DNA from: Tubiluchus corallicola | Taxonomy: Eukaryota > Priapulida > Priapulimorpha > Priapulimorphida > Tubiluchidae | DNA length: 64,000 nt | Direction of reading: 5' to 3' | Assembly (NCBI GenBank): GCA_030141605.1 | Contig: JAQGDQ010000026.1 | Location: forward strand, 558,001 to 622,000 | In this document: positions 25,685 to 48,213 of the stretch, in pieces | Layout: every line of letters begins with the position of its first letter | How positions within the stretch are numbered: position 1 is the first letter of the stretch | The notes under the pieces: model-generated | Seen by the model: only the letters and a program-made list of their open reading frames with translations | Database searches by the model: none | What the model was told of the DNA's origin: nothing | Program-made: the position numbers and the translations under genes

Positions 25685-28600
25685 TTACTTAAGCGTCTGG
25701 AAAAATTGAAATAAATAAGATTAATGAAAATTGAAAACTGTAAACGTAGCAATGAAAAAATTATCATTAACCAAGGTTACACTTCTGATTCACTGTACTT
25801 GATCTATTCTACTTTATGAAACAGGTGACTTTGTAACTTCATTAACGTGCCAATACTGATTTGAAGTTTTAAGCAACTGATTAACAGCTACTGTAACCAC
25901 ACATGATGTTGGTTATATTTGTTTACATATTTGCTTATATTGTGTAAACAAATTAACTTAATTTGTACTTTCAATATTCATTATTTACCTGTGTAAAATT
26001 AACGAAGTTTTGCTGTGACTTTGATCCTTAATTTGAATGAGCAGTTGTGGAATTATGCCAAAGACAATGCTTATGACGAGGTTGGTTAGATTTCTGAGGG
26101 GGAACATTTAGGTGCTCTCAGGCTCTAATAACTTAAGTTCTGGGCTCTAATAACTTAAAATTCTAAACCTTTGACATTTGATGTAATGTACAATTGCACG
26201 TAGCATTTCTAGTGCATAACATGGACAAACTTGCCATTTTTTGTTTTGATTGACGTATTTTAAATATGCTGCAAAGTGGGGGTATGAATCAACAAAAAAG
26301 TGATGTATAACTTTGACAATTGCCTTTTTGCTCTTCCTTTTATACTAGTTTTATTTGTTTTTGAGGTACACTGCAGAAAATGTAACATGTTTATGCTGTT
26401 CTTAAAAATTGACCTAACTGACTTTTCACTTTTTATTGCATATCGCATGGATAACTTTTCTTCCAAATTGTGGCTCTGTGTTCTTGAATTTTCGACATCA
26501 GAAAATATATGTCATCATTATCTTGACACAATCGTGATTAATATTTTGAGACATACTCTGGGCACTCCAACTCATTTAAAATGTGTGCTGCACAGTTTAC
26601 ACAAACAGAAATGCATGGCAGTCATGGCCAACCAATGTCGGTGTGAGTAATTAATTGCTGTTAAAAATGAATTGTTGTGTACTTATACTACATATAAATA
26701 AGCCAAGTAGTAATACAAAAAATGAAAAAAGGTGATGAGAGAGAGAAAGAGAGAGCACGAGAGCGAGAGAGAGAGTGAGAGAAAGAGAGAGCGTGAGAGA
26801 GAGAGAGAGAGAGATAGAGAGGAGAGAGAGGAGAGAGAGAGAGAGAGAGAGAGAGAGAGAGAGAGAGAGAGAGAGAGAGAGAGAGAGAGAGAGAGAGAGA
26901 GAGAGAGAGAGGAGAGGGAGAGGGAGAGAGAGAGAGAGAGAGAGAGAGAGAGAGAGAGAGAGAGAGAGAGAGAGAGAGAGAGAGAGAGAGAGAGAGAGAG
27001 AGAGAGAGAGAGAGAGAGAACTTTGTATTACACATCTAACGTCTAGTGCAAACCAGGCATATCACATACCTTTAAAACACTGATGAGCTGATCAGGACTA
27101 GGGCGGTCTATAGACTTTTTACTGCGATAAATAAATGCCACTTTACCCTGTTTACTGACAATGATGTCACCACCCATCTAGAAAAAGTAAAAATAAATAA
27201 ACCACAAATAAAAATGCAGTGTGGCCCAACAAAACACGATGAGTGCCGATGAAGCTGCAAGTTTTAAAAGCAAAACAGGACGATTTTTCATATTCTACCT
27301 GATTTTGAAGTACAGTATACTGTATACATTTTAACACATATAATAATGCCAAATGCCAAAGCATTTCTGATAATTAAATAATAGGTTAAAAACTTAATTA
27401 ATGGTGGGCACGTCCAAATAGCGATGATATCACAAACGAACATAACTTTCAACACCACAAACATTCCACGAACATGTTGAATGTGTTTGCAAAAGCGAAA
27501 CTTGAAGAGCAGTGCTACTGAACAACATTCAGTGCAATATACAAAAACTCTGCGAATTTAAGATAAAAATAGAATTTCAAATTTACTGCTGTGCTCATGG
27601 ACGAGCTTTCGAACGTGTGTATTACATCACAAACGAATAGCTCTGAACTAAGAGGTACAGCACCCATTTTTTGTGCGACACATTTTCGAAATGCAGGTGC
27701 TAGTGCCTGAATGGCGAAATGCATGTAACAGGAACATGAAATTACTTTTGTGTGGTAATAATTCTTTCACTTAAGTCATTTTTAAAAAAATAGTATGTAC
27801 CCTTTCAATATTTTAAAGAGTAGATTGTTTTGACCTACAGTTTAGGGCTGGGTCCAGTTTTCCTTTAAAACATGTATACTGAGTGGCACAAAAAATGCAG
27901 CGAAATTTAAAATACGATAATATCAGAACCAAGAAAACTAGAAAATTGAAATTTCACAGTGCACATGGTATTGCAATAGATTAGCATTTGGCTGTGAAAG
28001 TTACATGTTTATAACTTTAGTGGTTTTTGTGAGGTATGGCCCAAAAGCATTTGCATGTAAAAAAAATTCAAAATCATGTATATTGTCAACTAATCATCAA
28101 ATGTAAGCAAATGCTGTAAATGCAGCAAAACAAAAAAGAAATCAATCAATTTATGTAACAGTCTTGATTATAGAAAATAAGGTGCGGATAAAGATTTGTA
28201 GTCAAGAAAACATTTGACGTAATCCTCTGGAATATAGTAGCTAGAATTCTCTTAAACAGAAGCTGTACGATGGCTGAACAATACCATTTGATGCACAGAA
28301 ACTAAAGCCAAAAATTATTAAGTATTGAAACCAAAGAGCCATTAGAGAAGTGAGAAAATATCAGCTGTTGAAAGGAAAGCCTTTGTCAAACTTGCATCAA
28401 ATATGATGTGCACATAGATCACTTGCTTTCAACTTGAACAGTAATGACAAACAAAATTTGTTCCAGCATTTATTTTTTTCCTTTTGTTGATTTAAATAAA
28501 AACTTATCAAAACTTCTGTATCTTTGGAAAATATAACTGAATGGAAACTGAATGACCTAAATTTTTGGTGTTCATACATGACAGTTTCAACATAAGTGTG

Positions 28601-48213: not shown

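Follow-up and report, generated by a model that had tools for sequence, protein, structure and literature searches.

Results

Gene structure and neighbouring features

The window (the whole stretch of Tubiluchus corallicola DNA that was analysed, 64,000 nt) carries on its minus strand, from 48213 to 25685, ten exons whose GT-AG borders and matching phases join them into a reading frame for a 300-residue peroxiredoxin-like protein. This bears out the initial annotation, which had described ten in-phase minus-strand exons and one protein. The frame starts with an ATG at 48213 and stops with a TAA at 25687-25685; its sole internal in-frame stops are two TGA codons, at 45748-45746 and 45739-45737, which would give RHFAUVPUR if read as selenocysteine (Sec, U). 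Exon 1 (48114..48213) is in phase and has a GT donor, the ATG at 48213 being the presumed start codon. Exon 2 (47807..47885) has AG and GT borders and keeps the phase. Exon 3 (47224..47277; TTGVKSKDELQSLWEPVYT) has a counterpart in intronless paralogs from the same genome (see below), and these paralogs back both the exon itself and its direct junction to exon 4 (46718..46763). Exon 5 (45704..45943) carries both putative Sec codons, which were assigned from the frame and from the alignment with homologs. The in-phase model continues with exon 6 (44817..44942), a sixth intron of 14,550 bp (30267..44816), exon 7 (30228..30266), exon 8 (29106..29204), exon 9 (27070..27177) and finally exon 10 (25685..25696), which encodes TLK and the stop. 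The splicing of the ten-exon model is a prediction from the genomic sequence.

An 11-exon model, with an additional minus-strand exon of 108 nt at 46947-46840, was also in phase, yet the paralogs have no counterpart of this exon. It was left out of the model for that reason and may be a cassette exon. In the model supported by the paralogs, the two Sec residues take positions 159 and 162 of 300; the numbering given at first, 169 and 172, differs from this by ten.

The sixth intron contains other coding sequence, as had been proposed. Two plus-strand stretches, 38119-38538 and 43729-44097, correspond to consecutive sections of the astacin profile; since they lie within the intron on the opposite strand, another gene is nested there. 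The last intron holds a long TC microsatellite (∼26730-27020, found by eye). Just upstream of the gene, inverted copies of CCGTATTTTCCCATGTATAAGAGACCC enclose ∼0.4 kb with an open frame inside (∼48779-49202, by eye), and this element is probably a small DNA transposon. Farther away, the minus strand carries an uninterrupted ribonuclease T2 frame (51184-52026; PF00445, E 6.5e-50) and a protein with two CCCH zinc fingers (11257-12330), which we take to resemble TIS11. A plus-strand open frame at 54069-54443 had no Pfam match at E 0.01; it contains LDLAKAFDKVPH, presumably a LINE-like reverse transcriptase motif.

Family assignment

With Cys replacing Sec, the protein scored 125.6 bits against the NCBIfam model of the selenoprotein L (SelL)-related redox proteins (NF040769; curated cut-off 120), which was the only NCBIfam model whose curated cut-off was passed. 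The second half of the protein, from exon 5 onwards, scored 126.9 bits with Cys for Sec and 114.3 bits, below the cut-off, with Ser for Sec. The stretch after both TGAs matched the model alone at 83.5 bits (E 1.3e-23), and therefore the same family continues in frame beyond the TGAs, in keeping with the initial reading of a family-like frame past both codons. The stretch before them scored just 11.6 bits.

Smaller parts of the protein were also recognized by NF040769: exon 5 alone, with Cys for Sec, matched at 40 bits (E 3.1e-10), and exons 7-10 alone at E 5.2e-13. These matches bear on the view that the locus consists of two separate short genes, one ending at the exon 5 TGA and the other starting past the 14.5-kb intron. 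A standard gene finder would indeed end at the TGA, and there are other coding pieces inside the long intron. Yet the two halves align with neighbouring stretches of a single family model, the 14.5-kb intron does not break the phase, and both halves stand in one frame in the intronless paralogs. We consider that the two-gene view has next to no chance of being correct, and we treat the ten exons as one gene.

Pfam placed the protein more broadly; with Cys for Sec, both AhpC-TSA_2 (PF13911, E 5.8e-13) and AhpC-TSA (PF00578, E 2.6e-10) were over their cut-offs. The best match to a solved structure was prostamide/prostaglandin F synthase (9us9; ∼165 residues aligned, E 5.4e-5), presumably a PRXL2-type protein, whose solved chain has CxxC whereas the window protein has UxxU. 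Membership in a different family of peroxiredoxin-like selenoproteins (the sponge AphC.like, the GOS survey's Prx-like 2 family or a SelU/PRXL2-like one) would be compatible with this broad placement, with the structural match and with UxxU in the GOS Prx-like 2 family, as reported in an excerpt of PMC2398784. We nevertheless judge it very improbable, given that no NCBIfam model other than the SelL-related one reached its cut-off and that two Sec two residues apart are a printed trait of SelL (excerpt of PMC3316567). Assignment to SelL is therefore preferred.

The UxxU motif by itself is too short to be informative. The DNA pattern [LF][RS]HF[GA]UxxU[RS] occurred in 54 stretches of 257 Gb of prokaryote DNA (genome_contigs), and none of the 54 frames resembled the window protein (best E 0.056). 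When NF040769 was run against 24 of the 54 genomes with such stretches, 17 of the 24 were matched, always below the cut-off. A protein search of genome_contigs gave 144 pattern stretches and a profile search of viral_contigs 61, with none confirmed as a relative in either set; the pattern scan of viral_contigs gave six raw stretches. Protein searches of plasmids and phages yielded no relative of the window protein. Because the motif alone is at chance level, the call of a selenoprotein depends on the frame around it, on the SECIS element and on the homologs.

SECIS element and selenocysteine machinery

In an Rfam scan of the 64-kb window, SECIS_1 (RF00031) was the only family to reach its gathering score. 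The match lies on the minus strand at 25567-25505, in the presumed 3′ UTR, and scored 35.8 bits, barely over the gathering score of 35 (E 0.0019 over the 64-kb window and 1.5e-5 over 501 bp). The AUGA, AAA and UGAU of the SECIS core are visible in the Rfam alignment. The minimum free energy of folding had a z-score of -2.87, and equal folding was seen in 3 of 200 shuffled sequences. A home-made scan of 1.3 kb, spanning the stop codon and the sequence past it, found this element as its sole candidate. It starts 117 nt past the stop and is followed by overlapping AATAAA poly(A) signals read in the sequence (25462..25448); because these signals come after it, the SECIS is taken to be transcribed. 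The element falls outside 25685..48213, the interval that the initial annotation had given to the gene.

Searches of the animal's own genome covered 343.5 Mb in 2344 contigs. The tRNA-Sec model gave 13 matches, two of them over the cut-off (on contigs C1915 and C151), and ARAGORN called both of these tRNA-Sec with anticodon TCA. The longer one (C151, 97 nt) might sit on a bacterial contig, as the assembly may include such contigs. Of SepSecS, two pieces turned up, both on contig C615; together they span just positions 1-70 of the 389-position profile, and one of them contains an internal TGA.

Intronless paralogs with the same two TGA codons

NF040769 gave ten matches in the same genome. Two were exons of the window gene, five fell in four paralog loci, and three were weaker (C886, C846 and C1936). 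The weaker match on C886 is a Cys protein closer to ResA, and it might be bacterial. The four paralogs lie at C1771:396226-396735 (L081), C1460:44664-45164 (L082), C1696:103217-103720 (L083) and C1151:6044-6421 (L084). Each consists of one frame without introns, 326-358 residues long between TAA or TAG stops, and the three unbroken copies have 315-317 residues from the likely start; the absence of introns applies to the coding frame, and the UTRs may contain some. In the C1151 copy, ∼0.7 kb of inserted DNA cuts the frame near the C terminus. All four have TGA at both Sec columns of the window protein, giving UNPU; any other TGAs precede the likely start or, in the C1151 copy, belong to the insert. 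Identity is 59-88% among the paralogs and 26-29% between them and the window protein; against NF040769 they scored 98-108 bits, below the cut-off of 120. As for repeats, the C1460 and C1151 loci have some in common with the window, the flank of the C1696 copy holds one with 73 matches in the genome (itself included), and in the 6-kb C1771 locus no shared repeat was found.

In pairwise comparisons of the three unbroken copies, the part ahead of the TGAs had dN/dS values of 0.13, 0.16 and 0.20, and the part behind them 0.10, 0.13 and 0.14, at dS values of 0.9 to 1.7 that are near saturation for the simple method used. Selection past the UGAs is therefore at least as strong as ahead of them. The recent pair, C1460 and the broken C1151, had a dN/dS of ∼0.5 on both sides, which tells little.

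These results are relevant to the question of whether the window gene could be a decaying gene that once had Cys, or a pseudogene, with two stop mutations fallen by chance in its active site. In favour of decay, the product has diverged, with 26-29% identity to the paralogs. Decay, however, would have to account for the fact that the only stops in 300 codons are TGAs at the two catalytic columns, that splice sites and phases are intact, that a SECIS follows the stop and that the same TGAs are kept in paralogs under purifying selection. We regard such decay as very improbable and favour a genuine SelL gene.

SECIS-like elements of the paralogs

An Rfam search of the paralog loci at E up to 0.5 found no SECIS, and our first home-made scan, which demanded (T/C)GA in the 3′ part of the core, missed the paralog elements. 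The scan was relaxed after the 3′ UTR of the C1771 copy had been read by eye, and homologous candidates were then picked for conservation. Within 1.5 kb past the stops, the relaxed scan gave three candidates each in L081 and L082, one in L083 and two in L084. A homologous stem-loop lies 58, 54 and 1007 nt past the stop in the C1771, C1696 and C1460 copies, respectively; in the broken C1151 copy it lies beyond the scanned stretch and was located by motif. The lowest-energy candidate of L081 was not the homologous one.

As a control, a candidate of equal quality was found in 4 of 300 random 150-nt windows, with thresholds that had been fixed after the matches were seen. Because random windows also yield candidates, it is conservation and covariation that carry the argument. 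Fourteen consensus pairs were kept in all four elements, and in four of these pairs both partners had changed; two of the rows are near copies. Sliding one strand against the other lowered the pairing from 100% to 43-52%. In a shuffle test with five measures, pairs with a change on both sides were as frequent in 21 of 500 shuffles, and the number of further pair types was not unusual (183 of 500). These stem-loops are likely, but not proven, to be SECIS elements with an ATGA/GGAR core.

Bacterial relatives

Among 247 genomes of one bacterial phylum, that of a sampled Edaphobacter and hence presumably the Acidobacteriota, 36 had a match at E ≤ 1e-18 (39 matches in total). Twenty-six of the 39, together with a weaker match from the scattered genomes (L094), were aligned as 27 bacterial rows, 13-30% identical to the window protein. 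The column of Sec159 contained U in 18 rows and C in nine, and that of Sec162 contained C in 23, U in three and P in one. The residue pairs were UxxC (14 rows), CxxC (nine), UxxU (three; loci L114, L115 and L122, with two TGAs each) and UxxP (one), and U occurred in no other column of the matched stretches. Apart from the one Pro, then, both TGAs coincide with Sec or Cys positions in all 27 rows, in agreement with their initial placement at the CxxC positions of relatives. The active site of these NF040769 proteins is of the type FLRHFG[UC]xx[CU]R, like RHFAUVPUR in the window protein. Their frames have 170-250 aa in 35 of the 39 cases (range of all, 140-361), which in most leaves no room for the N-terminal part, > 100 residues long, that is common to the window protein and the paralogs.

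A tree was built from 29 rows, comprising 25 bacterial sequences, the window protein and three paralogs, so that all animal rows came from the one genome. The four animal rows fell on one side of a branch (support 98/96), and they lay within a set that also held seven bacterial rows, namely the three with UxxU and four with UxxC (support 96/91). The tree has long branches and a midpoint root and samples one phylum plus 24 scattered genomes, and it is not one from which the direction or age of a transfer can be read.

Discussion

The gene in the window almost certainly encodes a selenoprotein L, to judge from its sequence, and is a new member of this already known family. The initial annotation had proposed SelL with UxxU in a peroxiredoxin-like protein, and the proposal has gained from the NF040769 score, the SECIS, the paralog TGAs, the tRNA-Sec genes and the pieces of SepSecS. 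As described in the excerpt of PMC3316567, animal SelL (SELENOL) likewise has a peroxiredoxin-like domain, two Sec two residues apart and a single SECIS. That SelL is rare, as had also been stated, holds for vertebrates, among which this source reports it in fishes only, but less so for invertebrates; a survey of six genomes lists a single gene for each of sponge, placozoan, cnidarian, annelid and amphioxus, and none for Lottia (excerpt of PMC3473315). Ciona SelL is known from ESTs (excerpt of PMC2874816). In contrast to the single genes of that invertebrate survey, the present genome has a spliced gene plus four paralogs with intronless frames, three of them unbroken. In the parts of the open-licence literature cited here we met no account of an intronless SelL set or of its type of SECIS, although one may be in print elsewhere.

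By analogy with established eukaryotic Sec insertion, the SECIS of the window gene would recruit SBP2 and eEFSec with tRNA-Sec, and both UGAs would be read as selenocysteine by the standard pathway with one SECIS. In the original description of the family, the two Sec of SelL are reported to be linked by a diselenide bond within a redox centre of thioredoxin fold, and Sec159 and Sec162 may form such a reversible diselenide here. In vertebrate SelL, whose two Sec are separated by two residues, both are stated to be served by one SECIS (excerpt of PMC3316567).

The intronless copies would most simply derive from reverse-transcribed SelL mRNA, an origin that we propose because they have the animal N-terminal part and SECIS-like elements. 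On balance, although with considerable reserve, we favour the following picture. The paralogs (UNPU; three unbroken, one broken by an insert) would constitute a second subfamily of SelL, with intron-free frames, which arose long ago from a SelL transcript, has been kept by selection and uses divergent SECIS elements (ATGA, and GGAR on the core's 3′ side) to which the Rfam model is blind; the animal SelL proteins would share a branch with Sec-containing Acidobacteriota proteins, three of which are the sole bacterial UxxU rows of the alignment.

SelL genes are easily missed, as the initial annotation had anticipated for automatic pipelines; in Ensembl vertebrates SELENOL is one of three families with < 1% well annotated genes (excerpt of PMC12822975). 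A resolved gene model with its SECIS should therefore be useful. With its five genes of two UGAs each, this genome would lend itself to experiments on how a single SECIS can act on two closely spaced UGAs. The same five genes may help to explain why Sec is kept at both sites, while the second site is Cys in 23 of the 27 bacterial rows.
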